Assembly (NCBI RefSeq): GCF_027595985.1
Contig: NC_073305.1
Coordinates: 106,637,535-106,701,534, forward strand
Reading direction: 5' to 3'
DNA from: Sorex araneus
Lineage: Eukaryota > Chordata > Mammalia > Eulipotyphla > Soricidae
DNA length: 64,000 bases
A program made the position numbers and the translations under genes. The notes below the pieces were generated by a model. That model worked only from the letters and a program-made list of their open reading frames with translations. It did no database searches and was not told the DNA's origin. Of the stretch, positions 1 to 50,934 are shown one piece after another (position 1 is the stretch's first letter; every line of letters begins with the position of its first letter).

Positions 1-160
1 AAAACTCAATGAAATGAATGCCTCACCAAGAATACTTTACCCGGATAAACTCTCAATTAAACTTGAAGGAACTATACACTATTTCACGGAGAAACAATAG
101 CTCAGGAACTTCATAGACTCAAGACCAAATTTAAAAGAAGGACTCAAAGGGCTACTATAA
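1..160 (+). pseudogene. L1 ORF1 C-terminal end (broken)
   Basis: Frame 2 reads the end of an L1 ORF1 protein (RNA-binding nucleic acid chaperone), including NASPRILYPDKLS and EGTIHYFTEK, and finishes at TAA 158-160. An in-frame TAG at 98-100 replaces a codon after EKQ, so the protein is interrupted. The upstream part of ORF1 lies outside the window. A 43 bp spacer separates it from ORF2, the usual bicistronic L1 layout. The same residues can be read in the antisense L1 at 46.4-46.9 kb. Confidence 0.85.
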
Positions 161-203
161 GACAAGGAAAAAGACCTATAAGAACAACAAACCCTACAGA
201 AAA

Positions 204-1341
204 ATGGCACAAAATCCTATGACAATAATTTCTCTTAATGTTAACCGTCTAAATGCACCAATCAAGAGGCACAGAGTGGCAAAATGGATTCGGAAACTAA
301 ACCCAACTTTCTGCTGCCTACAAGAAACACATCTGAATAGTCAAAACAAACACAGACTCAAAATCAAAGGATGGAAAACAATCCTGCAAGCAAACAGCTC
401 CCTCAAAAAAGCTGGGGTGGCCATACTAGTATCCGACAACATAGATTTCAGGCTGAAAAAGATTAGAAGAGACAGCAAATGTCATTTTATATTCATCAAG
501 GGATATGTACAACAGGAAGAAATCACACTATTAAACGTATACGCAGCTAATGAACGACCAGCTAAATACTTAAAAGAACACCTAACAGAATTTAAGGAAG
601 ACATAACTAGCACCATGATAGTAGTAGGAGACTTCAACACTGCTTTATCACCTCTGGATAGATCGACAAGAACAACACTCAGCAAGGAAACAATGGCTCT
701 GAAGGAAGAAAGGGAAGAGACAGGCCTAATTAATAGACCTATACAGGGCTATACACCCCAAAAAGAAAGAATACACATTCTTTTCCAGTGCACACGGAAC
801 ATTTTCAAAACTAGACCATGTTCTGGGTCACAAATTATACCTTAATAGAATGGGGAAGATAGAAATTGTATCAACTATCTTCTCAGACCATGATGCACTG
901 AAGATGGAAGTTAAACACACACAGACGCGGAGAACCAAATCAAACACTTGGAAATTAAACAACTCACTATTGAACAATGAGTGGATCACGAAAGAAATCA
1001 AGGAAGAAATCAAGAGATACCTCGAAACAAATGAGAATGAAGACACAAGCTACCAGAACCTATAGGACGCAGCTAAAGCTGTGTTAAGGGGAAAATTTAT
1101 AGCTCTGCAAGCATTCCACAGAAAGGAAGAAAGGGCCTATATGGATAGCTTGACTTCGCAGCTCAAGATCTTAGAAGAGGACCAGCAAAAGGAACCCAAA
1201 CCAGATCGAAGGAAAGAAATAGTAAAACTTAGAGCAGAAATTAATGATATGGAAACCAGAAAAACAATCCAAAAGATTAATGAAACAAAGAGCTGGTTCT
1301 TCGAGAAAATAAATAAGATTGATAAACCGCTAGCAAGACTC

Positions 1342-1374
<33 letters not shown>

Positions 1375-4019
1375 AAACCCCAATAAACCGAATCAGAAAT
1401 GAAAAGGGGGACATCACAACAGAAACCAAGGAGATTCAAAAGATCATCAGAGACTACTTTGAAAGTCTGTATGCCACAAAACAAGAGAACCTAAAAGAAA
1501 TGGACGAATTCCTTGATTCCTACAATCTCCCAAGACTGAGCCAAGAAGACTTGAAATACCTGAATATGTTCATAAATATCAAGGAAATCGATACTGTAAT
1601 CAACAGTCTCCCCAAAAACAAAAGCCCAGGTCCAGACAGATTCACTGGCAAATTCTTCCAAACATTTAAAGAAGACTTGTTGCCAGTTCTCCTCAAGCTT
1701 TTCCAGGAAATTGAAAAGACAGGAACCCTCCCGAACAGTTTCTATGAGGCACATATCTCCCTAATACCAATAGCAAACAAAGACACCACTAACAAAGAAA
1801 ACTATAGACCAATATCTCCGATGAACACCGATGAAAAGATCCTCAACAAAATACTAGCAAGTAGGATCCAACAACTCATCAAAAAGATCATACACCATGA
1901 CCAAGTGGGATTCATCCCAGGGACACAAGGATGGTTTAACATTCGAAAATCAATCAACATAATCCATCATATCAACAAAAGTAAAGATAAAAACCATATT
2001 ATCATATCAATAGATGCAGAGAAAGCATTTGACAAGATCCAGCACCCGTTTATGATGAAAACTCTTGACAAAATGGGTATAGAAGGGACTTTCCTCAAGA
2101 TAGTCAAAGCCATCTACCACGAAACTATGGCAAGCATTATCATCAATGGGGAAAAACTGTGGGCCTTTCCTCTAAGATCGGGGACAAGACAAGGATGCCC
2201 ACTCTCACCACTTCCCCTCAATATAGTACTGGATGTACTAGCAATAGCCATTAGGTAAGAAAAAGATATTAAGGGCATTCACACAGGAAAGGAAAAAATC
2301 AAACTCTCACTATTCGCAGACGATATGATACTATATCTAAAGAAGCCTAAAATTTCTACTAAGAAACTCTTAGAAACAATTGACCTATATAGTGAGTTCT
2401 CAGACTACAAAATAAATACCCAAAAAACCATGGCCTTCCTATATGCAAACAATGAGACAGAGGAAAGGGACATGAAAAAAGTAATCCTGTTCACAATCGT
2501 GCCCCCAGAAAATCAAATACCTTGGAATAAGCTTAACTAAAGAAGTAAAGGACCTCTACAAAGAAAACTATAAAACACTACTCCATGAAATAAAAGAGGA
2601 CATGAGGAAATGGAAACATATCCCCTGCTCATGGATAGGGAGAATCAACATTGCCAAATTGGCAATACTCCCCAAAACATTATACAGATTCAACGTGATC
2701 CCTATAAGGATACCCATGACATTCTTCAAAGAAATGGATCAAGCAATCCTAAAATTCATATGGAACAATAAATGCCCACGGATAGCTAAAACGATTCTGG
2801 GGGAAAAGATGATGGGAAGTATCACCCTCCCCAACCTTAAACTTTACTACAAAGTGTGTAGTAAAACAGCATGGTACTGGAACAAAGACAGAGCCTTAGA
2901 CAATGGAACAGAGTGGAATATCCCAACACACAACCCCAAATGTATGATCATCTAATCTTTGATAAGGGGGCAGGAAAAGTGAAGTGGAACAAAGAAAGCC
3001 TCTTCAACAAATGGTGCTGGCATAACTGGACAACCACATGCAAAAGAATGGGCTTAGACCTCGACTTGACACCATGCACAAAAATCAGATCAAAATGGAT
3101 TAAAGACCTCAACATCAGACCACAATCCATAAGGTACATCGAAGATGAGGTCGGCAAAACCCTTCACGATATTGAAGCTAAAGGTATCTTCAAAGATGAC
3201 ACGGAACTAAGCAATCAAGTAAAAACAGAGATAAAAAATGGGACTACATTAAACTAAGTTTCTGCACCGCAAAAGACACAGGGACCAGAATACAAAGGCA
3301 ATCTACAGAGTGGGAATGGATATTCACCCAATATGCATCCGATAAAGGATTGATATCAAGGGTATACAAAGCACTAGTTGAACTCTACAAGAAGAAAACA
3401 TCCAACCCCATCAGAAAATGGGCTGAAGAAATGAACGGAAATTTTTCCAAGAAAGAGATACGAATGGCTAAAAGGTACATGAAAAAATGCTCTGCATCAC
3501 TAATCATCAGGGAGATGCAGATCAAAACAACTATGAGATACCACCTCACACCACAGAGAATGGCACACATCCAAAAGAACAAAAGCAACCGCTGTTGGAA
3601 AGGATGTGGAGAGAAAGGGACCCTTCTACACTGCTGGTGGGAATGCCGACTGGTCCAGCCCCTTTGGAAAACAATATAGACACTTCTCAAAAAATTTGAA
3701 ATTGAGATTCCATTTGATCCAGCAATACCATTTCTGGGAATATATCCTGGAGAAGCAAAATAGCACAGTCGAAATGACATCTGCACTTATATGTTCATTG
3801 TGGCACTGTTTACAATAGCCAGAATCTGGGAAAAATACAAGTGCCCAAGAACAGATGACTGGTTAAAGAAACGTTGGTACATCTATACAATGGAATACTA
3901 TGCAGCTGTTATAAAAAATGAAGTCATGACCTTTGCATATAAGTGGATCAACATGGAGTGAAATGAGCCAGAAAGAGAGGGACAGACATAGAAAGATTGC
4001 ACTCATCCGTGGAATATGA
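204..4019 (+). pseudogene. L1 ORF2 (endonuclease-reverse transcriptase), broken
   Basis: Full span of an L1 ORF2, about 1272 codons, encoding an AP-type endonuclease and a target-primed reverse transcriptase. The start ATG 204 opens MAQNPMTIISLNV. Endonuclease motifs visible: CLQETHL, VGDFNTALSPLDRS, and [10 protein letters not shown] after a frameshift near 845. The RT domain shows [13 protein letters not shown] and the catalytic FADDMILYL (about 2313-2340). The C-terminal cysteine-rich segment ([18 protein letters not shown]) is near 3590-3650. Breaks include shifts near 845, 1380, 2540, 2950, 3257 and 3680, an in-frame stop at 2256-2258 and a small deletion near 3957. The ORF would end at TGA 4017-4019. 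It cannot make protein. Confidence 0.93.
1344..1374 (+). repeat. (GA)n inside L1 ORF2 coding region
   Basis: A run of about 14 GA units lies in the linker between endonuclease and RT. It reads as alternating Arg-Glu and moves ORF2 out of frame just downstream. Shorter CT runs sit at the equivalent place in the antisense L1 copies near 11605 and 45250, so the tract is part of this L1 family and varies in length. Confidence 0.85.
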
Positions 4020-13769: not shown

Positions 13770-14006
13770 TGCACTGAAACAACTTATCCCTGATTCCACA
13801 TGTAGTATCCTAATGATGGAAATGGGTAAAAATGTTAAAAGGGTTGACACAGAAAGAAGAATCAAAAGAGCTGCATACAAAGAACAAAGACAATTTTAAA
13901 AACATCTCCTTGTTTCTCCAAATTTGAAATTGATAGTTTCTTTTCATAATAATAAATGCTAAAGCAAACAAAGTTAACAGAATGTAAAAAAATAGGGTGT
14001 ATTATT

Positions 14007-14275
14007 GGCTGGAGCGATAACACAGCAAGTAAAGCATTTGCCTTAAACTCAGCCAACTTGGGTTCGATTCATCCGCCCCTCTTGGAGAGCCCAGCAAGCT
14101 ACTGAGAGTATACCGCCCACATGGCAGAGCCTGGCAAGCTAGCTGTGGCTGGCGTATTCAATAGCCAACAGTAACAACACAGTAGCAACACAGTAACAAC
14201 AAGTCTCACAATGGAGACGTTACTGGAGCCCACTGGAGAAAATCAAGGAAAAACAGGATGACAGTGATACATTGC
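14007..14275 (+). mobile_element. RTE-tailed SINE, full length
   Basis: The tRNA-like head (GGCTGGAGCGATAACACAGC, B box GGTTCGATTC) continues into the second-type body: GCCCCTCTTGGAGAGCCC, GCAAGCTACTGAGAGTAT, then AGTAACAACAAGTCTCACA. The 3' end GGAGACGTTACTGGAGCCC and GGATGACAGTGATAC corresponds to the last codons and tail of the RTE element at 30.4 kb. No A-tail. Confidence 0.88.
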
Positions 14276-14279
14276 TACA

Positions 14280-14985: not shown

Positions 14986-14990
14986 ATCAT

Positions 14991-15236
14991 TGTATCACTG
15001 TCATCCCATTATTTGTAGATTTGCTCAGGCGGGTGCCAGTAATGTCACCATTCATTCCTGTTGCATGCTAGTGTAGCCCGATGGTATATTGGGGGCTCTT
15101 TCAGGATCAGGGGAATGAGGACTGTTGTTGTTACTATTTTTGGCATATCGAGTATGCCACAGGTAGCTTGCCAGGCTCTACTGTGCAGGCGGGATACTCT
15201 CAGTAGCTTGTCAGGCTCTCTAAGAGGGACAGAGAC
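14991..15236 (-). mobile_element. Long RTE-tailed composite, 3' part
   Basis: Read on the minus strand it has the SINE-type block (GGTAGCTTGCCAGGCTCT in plus orientation), an extra segment seen also at 38.55 and 49.35 kb (GGCTCTTTCAGGATCAGGGG), and the RTE tail next to TGTATCACTGTCATCCC. The tRNA head is missing. On the minus strand it lies directly downstream of the VAV3-like exon. Confidence 0.78.
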
Positions 15237-15925
15237 TTTTGGGGTAGCCTCTAATTTCCTTTATAGGTGTTCCCAACTACCAAATGTAAGCTTTTGGTAG
15301 ACTGGCATGTTGTAATGATCTGCACACTGACAAACACACACCTGCCTGCATCTCTGGGCAGCACCTGGGACATCTATGGCCTCAGGTTGATCTCAAGGTT
15401 GATGGAGTGTGCCCAGAAGTTGTTGAGCAGCTAGAAGAGCAGGACCCTATCTCGGAGAGTCTGTGCTAGATCGAACACCTGCACTGAGTCCCAGGTCACC
15501 CGGTGGTTGGCAGACAGCACCCCACAGTGGATGAGCCACTGTATGCACTGCCTCCATGTCTCTATGTCTGACGGGAGTACGACTCAACCCGACCAGGGCA
15601 GGCAGCGATGCAGCAGCTGCCACGGCGGTTTCTTGGTGCCCTGCCGATGACTTTCTGTCTGAATCTTGCAAAACAGCTGGCGATGTCCATCAGGAATCAC
15701 CTTCAGAGTTCCAACAGGGATCACGCATAGAGTTCCATGACTGGTGTGCTAAGCTCTGCATTGTCTGAGGCGACATAGTGAGCCGGGTTAGGGAGAGCGC
15801 AAGGGATTTGGGTGGTGGCAGTGCCATCAAACGTCCAATCAAATATGGTGTAGTAATTATGGAAAATAAGTAGGGAATGTCTTATGATGTATTGTGAAGC
15901 CATGAAAGCAACCACGCAGTTTAGG
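15237..15925 (-). other. Sequence flanking the VAV3-like exon
   Basis: 15237-15364 would be the start of intron 1 and 15558-15925 the 5' UTR/upstream side, if the block was copied as one genomic or pre-mRNA piece. It is more GC-rich than neighbouring unique DNA. No repeat landmarks are recognised. Assignment to the VAV3 locus is inference from position only. Confidence 0.4.
15365..15557 (-). pseudogene. VAV3: VAV3 first-exon copy (captured, broken)
   Basis: On the minus strand from ATG 15557, with small shifts, it reads [37 protein letters not shown] and INLRP-MSQ. This is the N-terminal calponin-homology start of VAV-family Rho guanine exchange factors and fits VAV3 best ([18 protein letters not shown]). 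The copy is 193 bp against about 204 bp expected. It has a small deletion just after ATG, stop codons where Cys and Gln codons are expected, and other indels. The exon-like segment ends CAG followed by GTGCTG, where a splice donor would fall, so it looks like a genomic or unspliced copy. It is not functional. Confidence 0.8.
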
Positions 15926-17421
15926 AATATGTTCATTCATGAAGCTTGGCCAGAGCATGTGGAAAGCATACTGGAGCATGGCAGTGGTTGGGTTGTGGAG
16001 ATCATCTGCAAGGGCTGGGTCCCTTGGGGTGGGGAGGGCTCTCACCAGCCCCCCTCTGGTGAGTGAAAATAGACTAGCGCAGAGTCCGGTGGCATGGTTA
16101 TGGGGGCCTCATTTTATGCTCCCTCTGGGAGAAGCAGCCGTGAGTTCTGGCCAATGAAAAGATTATCTGATGCCGACAGGAGGTGGCTTATGGGTGTGAC
16201 CCCTAGGCCGCCAGAGACTGGGGGAAGCAGGCAGAGGATCTCTACTCCTGGGTTCCATTGAGCCCAGAGTCCAAGGTCACAAAGTTCCCCATTACTTGGG
16301 TTCCGTGGAACTTCACTCATGAGTGAGGCTCAACCTGAGCATGTGGAAAACAGCCTGGAGCATGGTGGTAGTTGGGTTGTGGAGGTTGGCTGCCAGGTCT
16401 GGTTCCCTTGGGGCGGGGAGAGCTCTCACCCGTCCCCCTCCGGGGTGCCCCTAGTGAAAACAGCCTGGCATGGAGTCTCTGTATCTGGGCCCCATATCAA
16501 ACCAATTTCACCAGAGCATCCCAGATGGAGCAGGTGCAGTCTCTCCTCCCCTCCTACTCCAGACGAAACCCTGGCATCCAAGAGCTTCCACAAGCAAGGC
16601 CCAGGTCTGCAGGTTTCAGGACTAAATCTCTATACCGCATGGTGGCAGAGGTGTGAGCTATTCCTCCCTGGCTCCCTGTCAGCCTGGCTGTCAGCCGAAA
16701 TTTGCCTCCAGGCACCATCTTAACACACCAACAGCCCTAGTTCAGAGACACAGCAATGAGTCTTGGAAGACACCACAGAGCTGGAGATCTCTCTGGGCCC
16801 CATACCGAGCCAGTTTCACCGAGCCCCCCCAGATGGACCAGTTGCAGTCTCCCCTCCTACTCCAGATGGAATCCTGGCAACCAAGAGTTTCCACAAGCAA
16901 AACCCAGGTTTGCGTGTTTTAGGACTAAATCTCCATGCCACATGGTGGCAGAAGCACCGGGGTGTTCCCCCCCAGCTCCCCGCCTGCTCATCAACCTAGC
17001 TGTCACCCCCACAATCTGCCACTGGGCCCCATCTTAGCACACCAAAAGCCCTGGTCCAATTTACTCCCTAAATGGATTAGTGCCCTACAGAGATGTCTCT
17101 GGAACCCAACTATCTACAACCTAGGATTCCAGAAGTGTGTGGCCACAGCACCTAAGATTTTCAAAATGAGTGGACAATAAATGATCAGGCTTGAATGGTG
17201 GTTGGAAAATTCAAGCAAAATATAATGCTCAAAAGTAGAGAGAGTATTGGGGAAATTGCCTGCCATGGAGGCAGGGTGAGGACTGGTATGGGAGGGTGAA
17301 TACTGGGGACACTGGTGATAGAAATTGTGTACTGGTGGAGGGATGGGTGTTCAATCATTGTACGGCTGAATCTTGAGCATGAAAGCTTTGTAAATGTCTC
17401 ATGGTGATTCAATTAAAAAAA
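15926..17421 (+). mobile_element. Composite retroposon with repeated modules and L1-like 3' tail
   Basis: Module B (GAGCATGTGGAAAGCATACT, then GGTTGGGTTGTGGAG) occurs near 15950 and again at 16335, about 385 bp apart, and in related form near 38970. Module C (GGGCCCCATA...CAGTTTCACC) occurs near 16490 and 16795. The 3' part (17180-17421) matches L1-type 3' UTR: CTGCCATGGAGGCAGGGTG, TGGTGGAGGGATGGGTGTTC and CATGGTGATTCAATTAAAAAA. No ORF2 lies between the modules and the tail, so this looks like a non-autonomous element using an L1 3' end. Confidence 0.65.
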
Positions 17422-17645
17422 CTGTCTGTCACTGTCATCCCATTGCTCATCGATTTGCCCGAGCGGGCACCAGTAATATCTCCAGTGTGAGACTTGTTAC
17501 TGTTTTTGGCATATCGAATATGCCACGGGTAGCTTGCCAGGCTCTGCTGTGTGGGCAGGATACTCTTGGTAGCTTGTCCGGCTCTCCAAGAGGGGCGGAG
17601 GAATTGAACCCAGGTCAGCTTCATGCAAGGCAAATGCCCTACCTC
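17422..17645 (-). mobile_element. RTE-tailed SINE
   Basis: Antisense: tail GTCACTGTCATCCCATTGC, body ACGGGTAGCTTGCCAGG, head end GAATTGAACCCAGGTC. Flanks CAATTAAAAAAA (17410) and CAATTGAAAAAAA (17646) suggest a TSD at the 3' end of the preceding composite. Confidence 0.88.
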
Positions 17646-17788
17646 CAATTGAAAAAAAGAGAGAGAAAAAGGAAAAAGGAAGAGTAATGTGGAGTTCATG
17701 CCCAATTGAATCAACTTAATCAATGGCTGAATAAATAGAGTACTCCTACATTTAAAAAAAAGAAGAAGAAGAAAAATTTTAACAGTAC

Positions 17789-20075: not shown

Positions 20076-20095
20076 CTGCTTATGAGCCCCTCTCA

Positions 20096-20266
20096 GAGAG
20101 CCCAACAAGCTACTGAGAGTATCTCGCCTGCATGGCAGAGCCTGGCAAGTTACCCATGGTGTAATCAGTATGCCAAAAACAGTAACAACAAGTCTCAGGA
20201 TGGAGACATTACTGGTGCCCACTCGAGCAAATTGATGAGCAAAGGGATGACAGTGATACGTGACAG
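20096..20266 (+). mobile_element. RTE-tailed SINE, head missing
   Basis: Starts in the body at GCCCCTCTCAGAGAGCCC, without the tRNA head, and runs through AGTAACAACAAGTCTCAGG and GGAGACATTACTGG to GGATGACAGTGATACGTGAC. It forms the right end of the 1.84 kb insertion. Confidence 0.88.
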
Positions 20267-20276
20267 AAATTTATTA

Positions 20277-22061: not shown

Positions 22062-22075
22062 CCATTGAAGTCATT

Positions 22076-22320
22076 GTCACTGTCACTGTCATCCCGTTGC
22101 TCATTGATTTGTTCGAGCAGGCACCAGTAACGTCTCTCATTGTGAGACTTATTGTTACTGTTTTTGGCATATTGAATACACTACGGGTAGCTTGCCAGGC
22201 TTTGCCGTGCAGGCAAGATACTCTCGGTAGCTTGCGGGGCTCTCCAAGAGGGGCGGAGGAATCCACCACAGGTCGGCTGCGTGAAAATTGAACGGCCTAC
22301 CACTGTGCTATTGCTCCAAC
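22076..22320 (-). mobile_element. RTE-tailed SINE, full length
   Basis: Antisense copy with tail GTCACTGTCACTGTCATCC, shared body and head ending GCTATTGCTCCAACC. TSD CCATTGAAGTCATT (22062-22075) and CCATTGAAGTCACT (22321-22334), 13 of 14 identical. Confidence 0.93.
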
Positions 22321-22403
22321 CCATTGAAGTCACTAAGAGTTAAATGAAGGGGTACAAAAGGCTAGAAGGCCAAAAAAAAATGTATTTTGATCAGAATGAC
22401 AAA

Positions 22404-22496
22404 GACAGGGATGACGAATGGAGACGTTACTGGCACCTGCTCTAACAAATCGATGAACAACAGGATGACAAGTGATACAAGTGATACAAGTGATAG
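22404..22496 (+). mobile_element. RTE 3' stub (severely 5'-truncated)
   Basis: 93 bp between the direct repeats GAATGACAAA at 22394-22403 and 22497-22506. It reads the last RTE codons (DEWRRYW in GACGAATGGAGACGTTACTGG) and ends in repeated GATACAAGTGATACAAGT. Upstream bases GACAGGGATGACGAATGG match the RTE coding sequence (30380-30396), not the SINE body, so it is an RTE copy rather than a SINE. Confidence 0.82.
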
Positions 22497-26190: not shown

Positions 26191-26444
26191 TAAGAGGGTT
26201 TTACTGATGTTAGTTGAAGATAATTTAGTCAAATTAGGGACTTAAATGATTGTTCTCAACAGCCAGGGCTTTCTTTCAATTCACTCAGACCATTCCTTCC
26301 TTGAGTAAAGGCCTCAGTTTCTCTTGTCCTTATGTATGTTGATTGCATAGAGGTTTCTCTCATTTTGCATTCATAGAAGACTTGAAATAAATATATAATA
26401 TGATGACTAATTCTCCTGGCAGATATCAGCTTTTAACACACATG

Positions 26445-26691
26445 CAATATAGCACTGTCCTCCCGTTGTTCATTGATTTGCTCAAGCGGGCACCAGTAAC
26501 GTCTCCATTGCGAGACTTGTGGTTACTGTTTTGGACATATCAAGTACGCCACGGGTAGCTTGCCAGGATCTCTCATTCGGGCAGGATACTCTCGGTAGCT
26601 TGCTGGGCTCTCTGAGAGGGACGGAGGATTCAAACCTGGGTCGGCTGCATGCAAGGCAAATGCCTTAGCCTCTGTGCTATCGCTCTAGTCC
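26445..26691 (-). mobile_element. RTE-tailed SINE, full length
   Basis: Antisense copy with all blocks. TSD AACACACATG at 26435-26444 and 26692-26701, identical over 10 bp. Confidence 0.93.
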
Positions 26692-26866
26692 AACACACAT
26701 GAGATATTCAAAGTATTATTTGCCTAAAACTCATAAAAGGGAGAAAAGAAAATATATTTCTTAGGGGTAAATTTAGTATATGTTCTCATGCTGTCAATAT
26801 CATTATACTATGTTGGATTCAAGGTATAAGCAATTGCAATATATTTTATTATGGATAAATAGTAGC

Positions 26867-26950
26867 ACTGTAGCACTGTTATCCTGTTGTTCATCAATTT
26901 GCTCGTGTGGGCATCAGTAACGTCTCCATTGTAAGACTTGTTACTGTTTT
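26867..26950 (-). mobile_element. RTE-tailed SINE, tail portion only
   Basis: 84 bp: tail GTAGCACTGTTATCCTG, GTAACGTCTCCATTG and ACTTGTTACTGTTTT, then stops. Body and head are absent, a 5' truncation typical of LINE-mediated retroposition. Confidence 0.8.
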
Positions 26951-27301: not shown

Positions 27302-27310
27302 AGGAAGCAC

Positions 27311-27564
27311 TGTAGCACTGTCACTGTAGTCACTGTAGTTCATCGATTTGCTCAAGTGGGCACCAATAACATTTCTATTGTTAGATTTGTTGTTACTAGT
27401 TTTGGCATATTGAATACGCCACAGGTAGCTTGCCAGGCTCTGCCATTCAGGCAGGATATTCTCGATAGCTTGCCAGGCTCTTCGAGAGGGACAGAGGAAT
27501 CGAACCGAGGTCGGTGGCATGCAAGGCAAACGCCCTACCCATTGTGCTATCGCTCCAGTCCAAA
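27311..27564 (-). mobile_element. RTE-tailed SINE, full length
   Basis: Tail with repeated GTCACTGTAGTCACTGTAG, body and head complete to GCTCCAGTCC. TSD AGGAAGCAC and AGGAGGCAC (27302-27310, 27565-27573), one mismatch. Confidence 0.9.
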
Positions 27565-28111: not shown

Positions 28112-28603
28112 AATCAACCTGAATATTAAGTTGAAGCATAGAACCTCTCCACTCATCTAGAGAAAATGAGATTCATTCTCTCTAGATGAGCAGCAGTTCA
28201 CATCTTTATAAAGAACTACCTGTGCCCTCTCATTCCAAAATAGTTCTCATCCTACACTGAGAGACGGTTAAAGGGAAGTCATAGAGGGCAGTCATATATT
28301 TGATATCCAGATAGAAGTTGTGAACTCTTCCAAACACTGTACTATTTTCATTGCAGTCACTTATTGCTGACAAAAGTGCATGAACCAGATAAATCAACAC
28401 AAACCTAGTAACTTCAAAAAAACAAATTATGAAGCTAGATCAGAGAGTTTGTAATCAGCATATATACTATTTCTGCATAGCAATGAAAATTTCATCACTC
28501 TATTTGGTGAAAAACAATAGGTATTCCTCAGACTGAAAAGGGAAAAATAGTTTTGCTTAAGGAAGGAAATAATGATTTCCACTAATATAACCCTACTCTA
28601 ATA
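28112..28603. other. Unique DNA, no feature seen
   Basis: No recognised repeat. It is the left flank of the TIMM44-RTE chimera. Confidence 0.4.
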
Positions 28604-28614
28604 ATAAACTAAAA

Positions 28615-29506
28615 CTCCACCACCTCGCCTTTGGGGTTCTTGATCACCATCACCAGCTGCGCCTGGAAGGTGATGACCAGCACCGGGCCCTGCTCCATCA
28701 TCTTGCCCATGGCCAGGTCCACATTGTCAATGCCCAGAATGTGGGAGTGGAACTGCAGGCCGAGGGCCTTGGTCTGCTGGATGGGTATAGCGAGCTGGCT
28801 GTAGGTAGCTTCAAAGCACCAGTCTTTGAGGATCTCAAGCTCTCCAAAACTCATGGCCTCCAGCATGTTGGGGATGATTTCTTCTCGCACTGCTGCAGAA
28901 AGTGGTCCTTGTCGAAGGCCGGGTTCACACACAGGATTTCCGTCAGCACCTCCGACATCTCAGTTTTGGAGAACAGGCCCCCCCAGTGGGTCTGTGTCCT
29001 TGTCCGTCAGTGCCCATGATGCCTGGATGAAAGCATTGTCGCTCTCGTTGTACTTCATCTTCATCTCAAAAAAACACGTGAACACTACATTGTTGTCCTT
29101 GAAATCTTTCCACTGCTGGTACCACTTGGAGTCCTTGTGCAGGACGACGCCCAGGACCTCCTCGTTGGACTCAAACACTTTCTCTCTTGAGCTTCTCATC
29201 AGTGAACTCCTTCCACTTTTGTTGCTGAGTGCGCCACAGGTAGGGCAAGGTCTGGCCCAGCACGCTCTCGTTGATCTCCTTCTTCACCAACTCCATGCCC
29301 TGGGACAGGGCTTTGAAAGTGGCTTTGCGGCCCAGCTTCTCCCCGCCCTTGGACACCAACTCTGATGACTGCTTCGCCATCTTGGAGGCCCCCTCCATGC
29401 CCTCCTTGATCTTCCGGCCCAGGTCGCTCTTACTGATTTCATCAAGACTGTATCACCTTGCCTGTGCATACCATCTCCAACTCGATGGTTTTGTATTTCC
29501 TCTGGG
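28615..29506 (-). pseudogene. TIMM44: TIMM44 processed pseudogene fragment
   Basis: Minus-strand frames read the middle to C-terminal part of TIMM44, the matrix-side subunit that tethers mtHsp70 to the TIM23 protein import channel. Recognisable stretches: SKGGEKLGRKATFKALSQG, VLHKDSKWYQQWKDFKDNNV, FFEMKMKYNESDNAF, EATYSQLA-PIQQTKALGLQF and IDNVDLAMGKMMEQGPVL, ending at KGEVVE. About 300 codons lie without introns, so it came from spliced mRNA. Both ends are missing (the last ~40 residues and the N-terminal part), and there are stops and shifts (near 28945, 29170 and 29440). There is no poly(A). It directly abuts an RTE 3' end. Confidence 0.9.
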
Positions 29507-29743
29507 CTGGAGCGCATCTGACTCCTCCGGCTTCCAAGAGATGCTCATGAAAAACGAACTAGTCCCTGAAGCTCCCCACTTTCTCTCAATGGCACGAACA
29601 TCTCCGAATGCAGCAGCTATGTGTACCTGGGTCGAGAAATCAACATGAGGAACAACTTGGCTCCAGAACTGCGCAGGAGGAATAGAGCAGCGTGGAATGC
29701 CTTCAAGAACATCGAAAAAGTGGTTAAGAGGACAAAGAACCTT

Positions 29744-29930
29744 GGGGCTGGAGCAATAGCACAGCGGGTAGGGTGTTGACCTTGCACGCGACAGACCCGG
29801 GTTCGATTCCCAGCATCCCATATGGTCCCCTGAGCACCGCCAGGGGTGATTCCTGAGTGCAGAGCCAGGAGTAACCTCTGTGCATTGCCGGGTGTGACCC
29901 AAAAAGCAAAAAAAAAAAAAAAAAAAAAAA
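29744..29930 (+). mobile_element. SOR-type SINE, full length, near consensus
   Basis: GGGGCTGGAGCAATAGCACAGC to a long pure A-tail. TSD AAGAGGACAAAGAACCT (29726-29742) and AAGAGGACGAAGAACCT (29929-29945), one mismatch, made from RTE coding sequence. It therefore inserted after the RTE copy. Confidence 0.95.
29800..29810 (+). promoter_or_regulatory. Pol III B box of SINE
   Basis: GGTTCGATTCC matches the B-box consensus GGTTCGANNCC exactly. Together with the A-box region TAGCACAGCGGGTAGGG upstream, it would be the internal pol III promoter of the tRNA-derived head. Confidence 0.75.
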
Positions 29931-30464
29931 GAGGACGAAGAACCTCCGACTCCGGGCACATCTTTTGGATTCCACCTTTTTCCTTCACTAACATATGCCT
30001 CAGAGACCTGGGCCCTACGCAAACAGGATGAGAATGCTATTCAGGTATCTCAAAAAGGAATTGAAAGAGCTATGCTAGGAGTGTCACATCTCACTTAAGT
30101 GAGAGAAGGAATCTGGAGTTCTGACCTCCATCGACAGTCAAGAATCAGGGACGCTGTCTCGTTTGCCAAGGCATCAAAAATCAGATGGGCCGGTCATGTA
30201 ATGCGATTCAGAGAAGACCGTTGGACTAGAGCTATACCAGCTGGAGTCCACGGGACGTCAGAAGACTGCATGGCCACCCACCAACTAGATGGTCAGATTT
30301 CTTTGTCAAATCCCTGAGTAAATGATTTGAGGCTCTTCCTGTCCCTAGAGCAAGCAAATATCATTGGGCTGCACTAGCACGTGACAGGGACAAATGGCGA
30401 CATTACTGGTACCCGCTCGAGCAAATGGAAGATCAACGGGACGACAAGTGATACAAGTGAATTT

Positions 30465-31327
30465 ATAAATAAAACTGAAAATTCATTGCTATATTACTTT
30501 TAAAATTTGACCCTTTGAAATTACACTTTAAACTACTGCTTGTTTTAGTCTAAAAATTCCTTAGCTCCTACTTTTCTCTGAAAACTGTGCTATAAACAAA
30601 ATTTGTACCTAAAGTTCTTAAGAACATGCTGTTGTCCCTTTTTAATTTTGAACTATCCACTCCCCCTACACACACCTGAAAGCAGAATTTGAAATTCTAT
30701 AAGTAGGAGCTTTGAAATTAAATAACTATTGACTGTCCTGTTCATCAGTTAATGAAAATGCAGGGTATTTTCTGAATGCTTTTGCTTGTGGAAGATCACT
30801 TATGATGAACTGTTTTTTTTTTTCTGGTGTCAGTATTTTTTGATAACTAAACAGACATTTAAAATCTGTCCACAGGCATTTCTCAGTGTGAGAGGCCACC
30901 AAAAAAAAAAAATAGCAAATTTGTTTACTCCATTGAAAATATTTCTGCTCGTGATTTCAAGCCTATTTCAAGTTAGGTGTCTCAGAATCGATTTGTTTGA
31001 CCTGCTTACTTGTGTGCTGAGTTAGTTTGACTTTGATCATCTTGCCACCAAACCCAAACCTAGGTCAACTAAAGGCCACTTACAACGTCAAAGTTCTTTC
31101 CCAGGCTTTGAGATTAGAGCACAGATTCTAAAGTCCTGGCTTCATTCCTCTTTAGATGTACATCTTTGGGTGAGATTCCTTAAGTCCCTCACTTAATTTC
31201 CCCATTATGCCACTAAAAGTTCCTATTTCACCTTAAAGAGTACTAGGTACAGAGGAGAGACTTAAAAGTATAACTAACTCACTTTAAATGAAATCACAGT
31301 GTTCAAATGGCAGTGAATTTGTGAATT
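30465..31327. other. Unique DNA, no feature seen
   Basis: Starts with the right copy of the chimera's target duplication (30465-30476). Otherwise no recognised element. Confidence 0.45.
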
Positions 31328-31905: not shown

Positions 31906-31976
31906 GTTTCTTAAACTGCCCATAGAAAGAAATCTTAAATCAGAAATCATTCAAATGAGCAATTATCTCACATTAA

Positions 31977-32112
31977 CTGTCACTGTCACTGTCATCCCGT
32001 TGCTCATCGATTTGTTTGAGCGGGCACCAGTAACGTCTCTCATTGTGAGACTTATTGTTACTGTTTTGAGCATACCCAATACTCCATGGGTAACTTGCCC
32101 AAGAAGAGGAAT
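31977..32112 (-). mobile_element. RTE-tailed SINE, 5'-truncated
   Basis: Tail GTCACTGTCACTGTCATCCC, CACCAGTAACGTCTC and TTACTGTTTTGAGCATACCC. Ends before the head. Confidence 0.85.
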
Positions 32113-38472: not shown

Positions 38473-39150
38473 ACTGTATCACTGTATCACTGTCATCCCA
38501 TTGATCATCGATTTTCTTGAGCGAGCACCAGTAATGTCTCCATTCATTCTAGCCCTGAGATTTTAGCAGCCTCTCTTTACTCATTCTTCCCAGCGGTGCC
38601 ACATTTGAGGTTCTTTCAGGGTAAGGGGAATGAGACCCATCATTGTTACTGTATTTAGCATATCGAATACACCACAGAGAGCTTGCCAAGGTTTTCCTTG
38701 CAGGCAGGATGCTCTTGGTACCTTGCCAGGTTCTCTGAGTGGGAAAACTAGGCTATAAGAGGTCCAGGAGTGTTGTTTTATAGTCTCTGGATCTTGGTTG
38801 TTGATAGGATTACATGCGCTGGAGGCAGTTTGTGGGTGTGGCTGCCAAGCTACTGGAAAATGGGGGGTCTGAGTGGAGGAGGCCCAATCCCGATCCAAGC
38901 AGGCTTGGAGATCTCAGCCAGGTCCCACACACCTGGATTCCTCTGCCGGTTCCTTCATGTGTGAGGCTCGTCTGAATGTGTGGAGAGGAGCCTTGAGCAT
39001 GGCTGTGGCTGGGTTCCGGAGGTCTTCGGCTGCCAGGTATCTGCTCTGGACGGGGAGGGAAACAACCCACCTCACTACAAGGGGCTCTGGAGAAGACAGC
39101 CAGATACGGGGCCAAGAGACTCTGCCGTTCGAGATTCAGAGACTATAAAA
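38473..39150 (-). mobile_element. Long RTE-tailed composite retroposon
   Basis: On the minus strand: module B (reverse of 38957-39090, related to 15.95 and 16.33 kb), module A (reverse of 38788-38850), the SINE-type GCAAGCTCTCTGTGG block, an extra ~100 bp segment (reverse of CCCTGAGATTTTAGCAGCC), then the RTE tail (reverse of GTATCACTGTATCACTGTC). The tRNA head is replaced by AACTAGGCTATAAGA-type sequence. A related copy is at 49.2-49.7 kb. No open frame was recognised. The 5' limit is approximate. Confidence 0.72.
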
Positions 39151-39823: not shown

Positions 39824-40065
39824 TGCACTGTACTGTCCCATTGTTCATCGATTTGCTCTAGCGGGTACCAGTAACGTTTCCATTGTAAGACTTCTTGTTA
39901 CTCTTTTTGGCATATCAAATACACCACAGGTAGCTTGCCAGGCTCTGCTGTGAGGGCGGGATACTCTTGGTAGCTTGCTGGGCTCTCCGAGAGGGATGGA
40001 GGAATCGAACCCCGGTCGGCCGCGTGCAGGGCAAATGCCCTACCTGCTGTGCTATCGCTCCAGTC
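39824..40065 (-). mobile_element. RTE-tailed SINE, full length
   Basis: Complete copy. TSD TGCTAACCATAC (39812-39823) and TGCTAACCACAC (40066-40077), one mismatch. Confidence 0.93.
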
Positions 40066-40077
40066 TGCTAACCACAC

Positions 40078-42600: not shown

Positions 42601-45600
42601 TTATATTACACAGATGAATGCAATCTTTCTATGTCAGTCTCTCTCTCTTTCTGACTCATTTCACCTAGCATGATACTTTCCATGTTGATCCACTTGTATG
42701 CAAAGTTCATGACTTCATCTTTTCTAACAGCTGCATAGTAATTCATTGTATAGGTGTACTAAAGTTTCTTTAACCAGTCATCTGTTCTCAGGTACTCAGG
42801 TTTTTTCCAGATTTTCGCTATTATAAACAGTGCTAAGATGAACATACAAGTGCATATGTCATTTGGACAATACATTTTGCCTCTCCAGGATATATTCCCA
42901 GAAGAGATATTTCTGGGTCAAATGGGAGGTCAATTTCTAATTTTTTGAGAATCGTCCATATTGTTTTCCAAAAGGACTGAACCAGTCGGCATTCCCACCA
43001 GCAGTGTAGCAGGGTCCCTTTCTCCCCACATCCACTCCAACACCGGTTGCTTTTGTTCTTTTGGATGTGTGCCAGTCTTTGTGGTGTGAGGTGGTATCTC
43101 ATAGTTGTTTTGATCTGCATCTCCCTGATGATTAGTGATAAAGAGCATTTTTTCATGTGCCTTTTGGCCATTCATATTTCTTCCTTGAGAAAGTTTCTGT
43201 TCATTTATTTGCCCCACTTTCTGATGGGGTTGGATGTTTTCTTCTTGTAGAGTTCAACCAGTGCTTTATATACCATTGATATCAACCCCTTATCTGATAG
43301 GTATTATGTAAATATCCTTTCCCATTCTGTAGATTGTCTTTGTATTCTGGTCACTGTATCTTTTGCGGTGCAGAAGCTTTTTAGTTTAATGTAGTCCCAT
43401 TTGTTGATCTCTGTTTTCACTTGGTTGGTCAGTTGCATGTCATCTTTGAAGATACCTTTATCTTCAATATCGTGGAGGGTTTTGCCGACCTTGTCTTCAA
43501 TGTACCTTATGGTTTGTGGTCTGATATTGAAGTCTTTAATCCATTTTGATCTGACTTTTGAGCATGGTGTAAGGTCGAGGTCTAAGCCCATTTTTTTGCA
43601 TGTGATTGTCCAGTTATGCCAGCACAATTTGTTAAAGAGGCTTTCCTTGCTCCACTTCACATCTCTTGCTCCCTTATCAAAGATTAGATGATCATACATT
43701 TGGGGTTGTGTGTAGGGATATTACACCCTGTTGCATTGGTCTGCAGCTCTGCTTTTGTTCCAGTACCATGCTGCTTTAATTGTTACTGGTTTATAGTAGA
43801 GTTTAAGTTTGGGGAGGGAGATGTCTCCCATCGTCTTTTCCCAAGAATTGTTTTAGCTATTCGTGGGGTGTTGTTGTTCCATATGAATTTCAGGATGGCT
43901 TGATCCATTTTCTTTGGTAAATTTCATGGGTATCCTTAGAGGGATAACATTGAATCTGTATAATGCTTTGGGGAGTATTGCCATTTTTACAATGTTGATT
44001 CTCCCTATCCGTGAGCAGGGGATATGTTTCCATTTCCTCAGGTCCTCTTTTATTTCATGAAGTAGCATTTTATAGTTTTCTTTGTAGAGGTCCTTTACTT
44101 CCTTAGTTAAGCTGACTTGAGGTACTTGATTTTCTGGGGCACGATTGTGAATGGGATTGCTTTTTTCATGTTGCTTTCCTCTGTCCCATTATTTGTGTAT
44201 AGAAAGGCCATGGACTTTTGGATATTGATTTTATAGCCTGCCACTTTACTGTACAAGTCTATTGTTTCTAAGAGTTTCTTGGTAGAGGCTTGAGAATTCT
44301 CTAGATATAGTATCATATTATCTGCCAATAGTGAGAGTTTGATTTCTCCCTTTCTTATCTGGATGCCCTTAATATCTTTTTCTTGTCGGACCACTATTGC
44401 AAGAATTTCCAGTACTATATTGAACAGAAGTGGTGAGAGTGGGCATCTTTGTCTTGTTCCTGATCTTAGAGAAAAGGCCCTTACATTTTCCCCCATTGAG
44501 GATAATGCTGCCATGGGTTTGTGGTAGATGGCTTTGATTATCTTAAGGAAAGTTCCTTCAAAACCCATTTTGGTGAGATTTTTCATCATAAACAGGTGTT
44601 GGATCTTGTCAAATGCTTTCTCTGCATCTATTGATATGATTATATGATTTTTATTGTTACTCTTGTTGATATGATGGATTATGTTGATTGATTTCCAAAT
44701 ATTAAACCATTTTTGAATCTCTGCGATGAATTCCACTTGGTCATGGTGTATGATCTTTTTGATGAGTTGTTGGATTCTATTTGCTAATATTTTGTTGAGA
44801 ATCTTCGCATCGGTGTTCATCAGGGATATTGGTCTATAGTTTTCTTTGTTAGTGGTGTCTTTGTTTGATTTTGTATTAGGGAAATATGTGCCTCATAGAA
44901 ACTGGGGTTGTTCCTGTTTCTTCAATTTTGGAAAAGCTTAAGAATAACTGGCAACAGGTCCTCTTTAAACGTTTGGAAGAATTCATCAGTGAATCCATCT
45001 GGACCTGAGCTTTTGTTTTGGGAAGACTTTTGATTACAGTTTCAATTTCCTTGATATAATGAGCCTATTCAGGTATTCCAAGTCTTCCTGGTTCAGTCTT
45101 TGGAGATTATAGGAATCAAGGAATTTATCCATTTCTTTTAGATTCTCTTGTGGCATACAAGACTTTCAAAGTAGTCTCTGATGATCTTTTGAATTTCTTT
45201 GATTTCTGTTGTGATGTCCCCCTTTTCATTTCTGATTTGGTTTACTGGGGTTCTCTCTCTCTCTTTGTGAATCTTGCTAGTAGCTTATCAATCTTGGTTA
45301 TTTTCTCAAAGAACCAGCTCTTGGTTTCATTGACCTTTTGGATTGTTTATTGGGTTTCCATGTCATTGATTTCTGCTCTAATTTTTATTATTTCTTTCTT
45401 TAGGTGTGGTTTAGGTTCCTTTTCTGGTCTTTTTCTAAGATCTTTAGCTGTGAAGTCAAGCTATCTATGTAGGCCCTTTCTTCCTTCCTGAGGAATACTT
45501 GCAGAGCTATTAATTTTCCCCTTAACACAGCTTTAGCTGAGTCCCATAAGTTTTGGTATCTCATGTCTTCATTCTAGTTTGCTTCGAAGTATCTTTTGAT

Positions 45601-48007: not shown

Positions 48008-48058
48008 TACACATTGGTATTAATATACACATCACTGCACTTTTTTTTGCTTAAAATG

Positions 48059-48299
48059 TATAGCGCAGCAGGTAGGGCGTTCACCCTGCACGTGGCTGAC
48101 CCAGGTTCGATTCCTCTGGGCCTCTTGAAGAGCCCAGCAAGCTACCGAGAGTATCTTGCCCCCACAGCAAAGACTGGCAAGCTACCCGTGGCATATTCAA
48201 TATGCCAAAAGCAGTAACAACAAGTCTCACAGTGGAGATGTTACTGGTGCCTGCGCGAGCAAATTCATGAGCAATAGGATGATAGTGACAGTAACAGTA
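48059..48299 (+). mobile_element. RTE-tailed SINE, full length
   Basis: Head GCGCAGCAGGTAGGGCG and B box GGTTCGATTCC, body GAGCCCAGCAAGCTACCG, tail GGAGATGTTACTGGTGCC and GATAGTGACAGTAACAGTAA. Confidence 0.9.
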
Positions 48300-49205: not shown

Positions 49206-49249
<44 letters not shown>

Positions 49250-49270
49250 TATCATCATCATCATCATCCC
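49206..49270 (+). repeat. (CAT)n microsatellite
   Basis: About 20 CAT/ATC units. On the minus strand it is (GAT)n and continues directly from the tail of the RTE-tailed composite. Confidence 0.95.
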
Positions 49271-49716
49271 GTTGATCGTCAAATTTCTCGAGCGGTCTCA
49301 GTAACATCTCCACTTGTCCTAGCCCTGAGATTTTAGAGGCCTCTCTTTACATGTCCTTTCCAATTGTGCCGCATTGGAGGCTCTTTAAGGGTCAGGGGAA
49401 TGAGACCCATCATTGCTACTGGTTTTGGCATATGAATATGACATGGGTAATTTGCGAGGTTCACCCATGTGGGCAGTAAACTCTCGGTAGCTTACCAAGA
49501 GGGAGAACTAGGCTATAAGATGTCAAATAAGGCCACACGCTTCCGGGAGCTTGGTTTTTATAGTCTCTGGATGTTGGTCTGGGTGTGACTGCCTAGCTAC
49601 TGGAAAATGGGGGATCTGAGTGGAAGAGGCCCAGTCCTGATCCGAGCAGCTTTGGAGATCTCAGCCCCAGGTCCCACACACCTGAAGCAGATTCCTTCAT
49701 GTGTGAGGCTTTTCTA
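49271..49716 (-). mobile_element. Long RTE-tailed composite retroposon, second copy
   Basis: Same order as the 38.5 kb copy: RTE tail next to the microsatellite (CCCGTTGATCGTC), extra segment (CCCTGAGATTTTAGAGGCC), SINE-type block (CTCTCGGTAGCTTACC), AACTAGGCTATAAGA, then GCTACTGGAAAATGGGGG and GTCCCACACACCTG. 5'-truncated relative to the 38.5 kb copy. Confidence 0.75.
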
Positions 49717-50934
49717 AAATTAAATTTAGGGGAAAAAATACTTGAATTAAAAATAGATTTATTTCCTATTTGCACCTTGGGTTACTAGAAAATTTACTTA
49801 ACAATTTCATTGTTAATTAGCTTTATTTGACATATTAACTTTATTTCATTTGCTAATCATAATGAACATTGTTTTAGTAATTTTGAGAATTATTCTTACT
49901 CTTTAGTCACAGAATTTCCCATGGCACTGGTAGTATATTAAGCTATACACTGCAATGGCTTGGAGATTTCAGATTATTTATGCTTGAACACATGTGCTGT
50001 GTAACTGTAATGAAAAGGCCATTTATTCAATACCATCTCATCATCTTTTCTTCCTAAGTAGGCATCACTAATGTGCATGAATATAGTTTCCACAAATGCA
50101 TGAAGAAAGCAGAAGAGACCAGTTGACAGATAATGGAAGTGGAACAAGAATGATAACTTTTAAACAAATCAGAATTAATACATCTAATCAACAAATATTT
50201 AATGTTTTTTTTCTTTTTCATATTCCCATTAGGGAAATTTCTCTCAATGGCATTGTTAAACTCTAATATGTCTGTAAGTGTTGTCTTGAGACTCACTGCT
50301 GATTAGCATAACTCACACAAAATTATATAAACCCCTGCTCAATAGAGAAACAAAAATTTTTCTGCCAAGCATTTTTATATGACCACAATAGCAGTTGCTA
50401 CCAAATCTATTTCTAATATAACAACCAGAAAGAATATGTTAAGTATCTTTCAGTATATAGAGAGCCTGTTTAAATGAATTTTATTTTTATTCTATTTTTA
50501 AGTATAAGATGCAGAAAAGCATTATAAACAGAAGACAAAGATTTAACCAAAAGAATTATAGAATGACAATACTATCTCTCTGTATTTAAAATTTTATTTT
50601 TAATTATAAAATCACAAACATTGTGAAAGCAGCATTGTATAGCTACATCAGATAATCTGAGTTCCAATCCTCATTCACCACTGGTAGATGTTTGGATTTA
50701 TCATACTTCCTAATAAGCATGTGCTTCACCTTTCTTGTATGTAAAATAAAGATAATATTAAATATTTCATGGGTGGTTTCAAGGACTATACAGATTCATA
50801 CATGTGAAATCTAGTAGGGCCTGGCACATATTATAAAAAATGTATTATTATTATAAAATTAACTATTCAAGAGTGCAAATATTTATTCAAGGAATCCAAA
50901 CTCTAAGCAAATATAAAAATAATCCAGCATAAGT
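49717..50934. other. Unique DNA, no feature seen
   Basis: AT-rich, no recognised element. Confidence 0.45.

Follow-up and report, generated by a model that had tools for sequence, protein, structure and literature searches.

The window, by which we mean the whole 64-kb stretch of Sorex araneus DNA analysed here, carries a broken copy of an RTE-type LINE, bipartite elements made of an RTE 5' UTR and an RTE 3' end, and copies of two SINE families, Sor and a second one that we call SINE2 (Table 1). The nine SINE positions named in the original prediction all fall into this one family by nhmmer (9/9). The tRNA head is partly kept in seven of the nine copies, those at 20086 and 31969 having lost their 5' portions. 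The window also contains a broken Tim44 pseudogene fragment on the minus strand (28600-29440; PF04280, E 7.5e-20 for 28612-28959), which is oriented opposite to the RTE copy and lies close to its 5' edge. Furthermore, two LINE pieces that encode endonuclease and reverse transcriptase domains, at 135-2255 (+) and 44110-44892 (-), are probably L1, the likely helper of Sor.

Table 1. Transposable elements of the window that are discussed in the text.
Position	Strand	Feature	Details
13994..14277	+	SINE2, internal (ACAGTAACAAC)n expansion	No clear target-site duplication (TSD)
14988..15245	-	Bipartite element with longer RTE 3' coding piece (111 nt, 77%)	5'-truncated
17411..17648	-	SINE2, part of head lost	TSD 12 nt, 1 mismatch
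20086..20269	+	SINE2, headless by 5' truncation	Tail encodes WRHYWCPLEQIDEQRDD
22063..22323	-	SINE2, full length	TSD TGACTTCAATGG
22398..22484	+	Very short RTE copy, last ~85 nt	About three ACAAGTGAT repeats; TSD
26434..26693	-	SINE2, full length	TSD CATGTGTGTT
26861..26950	-	SINE2 fragment, 5'-truncated, bearing tail	Beyond the nine named; nhmmer
27308..27562	-	SINE2	No clear TSD
29645..30460	+	RTE copy, broken and 5'-truncated, C-terminal ORF part	tblastn with nematode proteins; RTE 3' HMM
29741..29930	+	Sor SINE with 23-A tail, splits RTE copy	Sequence
30380..30464	+	RTE 3' end	Last ORF codons overlapping two terminal repeats; SINE2 HMM match 30393-30462
31969..32099	-	SINE2, 5'-truncated	nhmmer
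38474..39122	-	Headless bipartite element, ~649 nt, RTE 5' UTR + 3' end	Nested in plus-strand copy of its own 5' region
39825..40066	-	SINE2, full length	TSD GTGTGGTTAGCA, 1 mismatch
48018..48299	+	SINE2, intact A and B boxes	No clear TSD
49264..49718	-	Second headless bipartite element	(GAT)n expansion at the 3' end

The RTE 3' HMM matches the window copy in two pieces (29645-29743 and 29929-30472), and coding similarity to nematode proteins in tblastn starts further upstream, at about 29500. The copy is interrupted by frame changes and stops. Since a Sor SINE sits inside it, this RTE copy predates that Sor insertion. The TGA that ends the open reading frame (30449-30451) falls within a terminal repeat, namely the first of the pair ACAAGTGAT/ACAAGTGA (30444-30460). 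The LINE therefore has no 3' UTR beyond these repeats, and the SINE2 tail described below is coding sequence.

We then used the C-terminal piece of the window RTE in protein searches, in which 204 of 273 candidates were matches; no Pfam family matched this piece. Among the 120 matches listed, 113 are named, and every named one comes from a strongylid nematode. The best match, at 65%, is to Nippostrongylus brasiliensis. When the N. brasiliensis protein (P0001) was in turn searched against the host genome, 71-78% identity was found at the 150 loci that were scored from 132,972 first-look candidates. In a tree of 34 rows, containing 33 of the 120 listed proteins, the window RTE pairs with two unnamed sequences (94/93) and adjoins H. 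polygyrus and N. brasiliensis (91/94, a support below the tree tool's starred level). The protein matches, the identity at host loci and the tree position together bear out the original prediction that this RTE is nematode-like, with its closest named relatives in parasitic roundworms.

By its clade, the element would be RTE1_Sar, an autonomous LINE, unlike SINE2, for which a sister relationship to elements of H. polygyrus and N. brasiliensis is likewise described (PMC6542046); this name follows from tree position. RTE1_Sar is reported in Sorex araneus and nine nematodes and as absent from other mammals, and Dunemann and Wasmuth (2019) infer its exchange with strongylid nematodes (PMC6542046). 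A horizontal transfer of the window RTE, with its direction and date, would follow from that literature (PMC6542046). If the RTE had instead been inherited vertically by host and nematodes, SINE2 and RTE would be an ordinary LINE-SINE pair without an imported LINE. While it is true that the transfer claim rests on one paper (PMC6542046), the strongylid origin of all 113 named proteins among the 120 matches listed makes vertical inheritance quite unlikely.

The tail of SINE2 corresponds to the end of this LINE. An HMM built from six SINE2 copies, with the RTE outside the seed, matches the RTE 3' end at E=1.8e-12 (Table 1). The SINE2 consensus reaches a Smith-Waterman (SW) score of 43 against the RTE piece 29931-30460, compared with 12.5±1.8 and a maximum of 24 in 1000 dinucleotide shuffles, and elsewhere in the window, in unmasked plus-strand pieces, the SINE2 tail alone does not exceed a score of 14. 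The tail is about 55 nt long, and its translated consensus, WRRYWCPLEQIDEQRDD, represents the last codons of the RTE gene. In line with this, strongylid nematode RTE proteins match SINE2 tails directly in tblastn (best E 1e-4 to 1e-3): P0001 agrees with the tail at 20201-20251 in 14/17 residues (E 1.1e-4) and finds two further tails, at 26510-26457 and 39885-39835. The tail also aligns at the 3' end of 30/30 best-scoring host RTE loci, at 81-93%, and in 20/20 longer RTE regions, 6 of which overlap those 30 loci; both sets were picked by their C-terminus match, so that the presence of a 3' end is built in and the alignment of the tail is the tested point. Both tails do end in short tandem repeats, as a likeness by chance or low complexity would have it, but the similarity lies in codons and not just in repeats, and the shuffle test (43 against a maximum of 24) refutes this reading, to which we attach a negligible probability. 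The identity between SINE consensus and RTE 3' end thus stands far above chance, and the claim that the SINE tail is the RTE 3' end and C-terminus is confirmed by SW score, HMM and host loci alike. A conserved RNA fold was not supported in the four tails tried (z -1.29, 0.42, 1.39 and 0.15), and the consensus fold of the tail was equalled by 10 of 200 column shuffles.

The relationship goes beyond what had been noted earlier, in that the SINE2 body is RTE-derived as well and the host's Sor SINE has the same head. Twenty regions of ~6.8 kb were taken around RTE loci, mainly for long open frames, and the body was located at the RTE in three of these (L034, L037 and L040) and not found there in the other 17. 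SINE2 positions 65-175 (111 nt) align there without gaps to the RTE 5' UTR, at 87%, 89% and 93%, with the RTE 3' end lying ~3 kb downstream. In all three, the ATG of a frame opening MIVCTFNA.. lies 122 nt after the last body base, and the RTE 3' end follows 2.8-2.9 kb past this predicted ATG. The frame has a weak endonuclease score (Pfam E 0.0014 and 0.0011 in L037, on either side of a shared stop, both under the curated cut-offs). The three RTE copies are alike further upstream too, which leaves the 5' end of the RTE unfixed. When proteins were searched on the assumption that the body encodes an N-terminus, not one of the 17 candidates reached E<=10, as is consistent with the body being RTE 5' UTR.

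The head of SINE2 equals the Sor head consensus at 64/66 positions when copies from other loci are included; for window copies only, the agreement of their majority consensus with the Sor head is 58/67, and 60/67 after CpG restoration. BLAST of the SINE2 against the Sor consensus gave the head as the sole alignment beyond chance. Thus SINE2 and Sor have a 66-nt Pol III head in common and differ in what follows, Sor having another body and an A-rich tail where SINE2 has the RTE body and tail. The head of SINE2 meets the RTE part at CCTCC, a motif that also occurs in the RTE 5' UTR. The consensus contains an A box (TAGCACAGCAGG) and a B box (GGTTCGATTCC) with 0 mismatches and no TTTT, and ARAGORN finds a tRNA-Ala in it; the B box is kept with at most one mismatch in 6/7 headed window copies. 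The A and B boxes and the Sor-type head agree with the prediction of a tRNA-headed element. The Sor SINE of shrews is itself named in PMC11240701, PMC8466645 and PMC7279448, with primers in PMC8608897, and one of these primers, SorexSINE-164F (PMC8608897), has an exact match in the Sor copy near 29.8 kb.

The ends of the copies bear on the question of which LINE copies SINE2. If the RTE-derived parts were passengers, SINE2 would be copied by L1 like Sor, as might be expected from the head common to both families and from the probable L1 pieces in the window. A run of 8 A lies near the end of 8/17 window Sor copies, but of none of the 19 SINE2 copies with both ends. Instead, SINE2 copies terminate in repeats, ACAGTGAC or ACAGTGCT for example, whose AGTG type resembles the ACAAGTGAT ends of RTE copies, and the 3' end that SINE2 has retained is the LINE's own. 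From these ends without 8-A runs, we judge mobilisation by L1 to be very unlikely. When 200 random window positions served as the comparison, 7/19 SINE2 copies with both ends had target-site duplications at p<=0.02, the longest being 18 nt with one mismatch; one of the seven, L009, has its second repeat situated far outside the element's end, and by the same test the other 12 had no clear duplication. Several clear duplications (22063-22323, 26434-26693 and 38474-39122) start with TG or come directly after the tail's ..AGTG, a hint that priming may involve pairing between the RNA tail and the target.

We conclude that SINE2 is very probably a composite of a 66-nt Sor head, a 111-nt piece of RTE 5' UTR and the last RTE codons with their terminal repeats, predicted to have spread by RTE reverse transcriptase. 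The enzyme would likely be that of RTE1_Sar.

Two further kinds of element in the window carry RTE sequence. The very short RTE copy at 22398-22484 has a duplication of 10 nt (exact) or 16 nt (2 mismatches), which is consistent with a short 3' end being enough to start copying, and carries the residues IDEQ as SINE2 does. The headless bipartite elements combine RTE 5' UTR and 3' end. For the one at 38474-39122, the joined flanks restore an empty site with a duplication of 7-9 nt. Relatives of it occur in L033, L037 and L042, and the L037 and L042 copies begin at the same base, preceded by unrelated sequence. Its first ~378 nt (38745-39122; L037 1628-1827; L042 6074-6272) have no match in three RTE 5' UTRs, and we propose that they come either from another RTE subfamily or from captured sequence. 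The second such element, at 49264-49718, shares 73% identity with the first across an alignment of 493 columns. At its 3' end lies a (GAT)n microsatellite (49207-49268) that was apparently seeded by the RTE tail.

These elements raise the possibility that the bipartite RTE part arrived ready-made from the nematode and that the host added the head alone. Copies without a recognisable head do exist, and both headless elements of the window have the nematode-like D-D-Q in their tails. On the other hand, IDEQ is common to SINE2 and two host RTE tails and occurs in 0/12 nematode or unnamed C-termini, which have IDDQ, LDDQ, FEDQ and the like; this distribution indicates capture in the host. In addition, the two headless elements are 23.3% apart, close to the SINE2 mean of 24.6% (21 pairs). 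We therefore regard a ready-made arrival as unlikely. With pairwise divergence so similar, the idea that the headless elements are older than SINE2 was also dropped.

We examined the abundance and age of both partners in the host assembly (2.406 Gb, 65 contigs). The exact 52-nt SINE2 tail occurs 299 times (154+145), its reversed control 0 times; a DNA search with the 66-nt tail, by a method that skips very common words, returned no match. Five arbitrary 10-kb host samples contained 5 full-length SINE2 copies, in 2/5 samples, which suggests a copy number of order 10^5, with wide error. The original prediction had raised the dating of SINE against RTE copies, and the two proved to be of broadly similar age: 22 long SINE2 copies, 7 of them from the window, have a mean non-CpG K2P divergence of 9.6% (5.2-16.5), compared with 7.6% for the window RTE copy and a mean of 7.1% (5.4-10.4) for the 29 best-scoring RTE loci, a set biased to the least decayed and from which L008, a near copy of L007, was left out. 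For the short RTE copy at 22.4 kb, the divergence from the best-scoring loci's consensus is 29.8%, measured on 94 positions that include flanking bases. As SINE2 contains RTE sequence, it cannot predate RTE in this lineage. Window Sor copies diverge by 5.9 to 40%, and Sor was therefore likely active both before and after SINE2 and RTE. The 17 Sor copies (window 4805-58822) fall into a young set (5.9-7.5%) and a much older one (14-40%), suggesting at least two bursts. Two of the RTE loci, G000:C1:446702872-446703468 and 446780443-446781039, are likely an inverted segmental duplication, as they are oppositely oriented, are separated by 77 kb, score identically and have a SINE2 neighbour that matches.

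The tails also give an indication of the donor. Among 48 tails classed as RTE, 29 have IEDQ, 2 have IDEQ (window 22417 and L037) and 13 were unparsed, in a classing by simple context in which at least two rows filed as RTE (L053 and L055) resemble bipartite elements. The 34 SINE2 tails comprise 16 with IDEQ, 1 other and 17 unparsed. With the IDEQ of SINE2 in just 2/48 RTE tails, the exact donor subfamily is rare in this sample, which hints that the SINE2 tail was captured from a rarer host RTE subfamily.

A possible course of events can be proposed on this basis. An RTE akin to those of strongylid nematodes, an affinity that is observed, would have entered the host lineage, as the transfer described in PMC6542046 implies. 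Internally deleted bipartite copies, joining 5' UTR to 3' end, would then have arisen and moved; their movement is suggested by one nested insertion with an empty site and by the common 5' end. A Sor-type Pol III head would next have been fused upstream of the 5' UTR piece, perhaps by template switch or insertion, at the junction that is now seen. RNA polymerase III is predicted to transcribe SINE2 from its A and B boxes, and the RTE enzyme may bind the coding 3' end, mistaking SINE2 RNA for the LINE's own. The product would be a copy at a new site, with the target-site duplications and the (ACAGTGAY)n or (ACAGTGCT)n ends that are observed. In its widest form, this proposal holds that the host's Sor promoter was lent to a worm-exchanged RTE, founding a second SINE family of ~10^5 copies, and that the stolen signal is coding sequence, the last codons doubling as protein C-terminus and enzyme recognition site and the tail (~55 nt plus repeats) being a minimal substrate. 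We consider the chances of this wider proposal to be about even.

The comparison with Bov-tA and BovB drawn in the original prediction holds, and is closer than was claimed, since it extends to a tRNA-type head, a LINE 5' piece and a LINE 3' end; Bov-tA too carries a piece of the BovB 5' end. In Table 1 of PMC3747384 (Ohshima 2013), Bov-tA of ruminants is listed with a tRNA-type head, as in SINE2, and a BovB tail, and its headless sibling Bov-A2 is given with the 5'-end of BovB (PMC3747384). Whereas the head of Bov-tA is tRNA-Glu and its partner BovB (PMC3747384), SINE2 has the head of a co-resident SINE family and the tail of a strongylid-type LINE. Ped-2 of the springhare, with a 'tRNA (ID SINE)' head on a BovB_Pca tail, likewise places an existing SINE head on an RTE-clade tail, but differs from SINE2 in partner LINE and host; the origin of its body is not given there (PMC3747384). 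AfroSINEs are another example of this known design (PMC3747384 Table 1). Hagfish SINE1-1_EBu and SINE2-1_EBu, like shrew SINE2, carry bipartite RTE-derived sequences, although with 7SL or tRNA heads, hagfish RTEs and no nematode link mentioned in that account (PMC7245038). In ManaSINE1 and other AviRTE SINEs of birds, the bipartite tail derives from an RTE that nematodes also possess (PMC4844689), and these SINEs would be the closest precedent for a host SINE using a worm-exchanged LINE. In that case, the hosts are birds, the LINE is shared with filarial nematodes and its 3' UTR is ~40 bp long (PMC4844689), whereas the RTE of SINE2 resides in a mammal and has a coding tail followed by repeats only.

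The design of SINE2 is thus already known, and the point of interest is a nematode-type helper in a mammal. No report of the SINE2/RTE pair was found in the literature searched, although Repbase, Dfam or SINEBase may list it. The terms 'SINE' and 'non-autonomous' are absent from PMC6542046, as is the word 'shrew' from PMC3747384. If our reading is true, SINE2 would be a mammalian counterpart of the bird AviRTE SINEs, in which a probably worm-exchanged LINE is exploited by a host SINE. Dating of the transfer within shrews would be aided by comparing which orthologous sites carry SINE2 and which lack it. A genome in which two SINE families have one head in common but probably depend on different helper LINEs would amount to a natural experiment on helper choice, and the short coding tail offers a small RNA that is testable for recognition by RTE reverse transcriptase.

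Finally, we looked for the family in other sequence collections. Viral contigs scanned for SINE2 and Sor patterns contained none. In a translated SINE2 search, 10 of 52 candidate proteins reached E<=1; they all come from short unnamed ENA contigs and are therefore uninformative as to which species carry SINE2. One predicted protein on an unnamed ENA contig, P0128, seems to be an antisense reading of a bipartite SINE2-type element and is likely host DNA in a metagenome.
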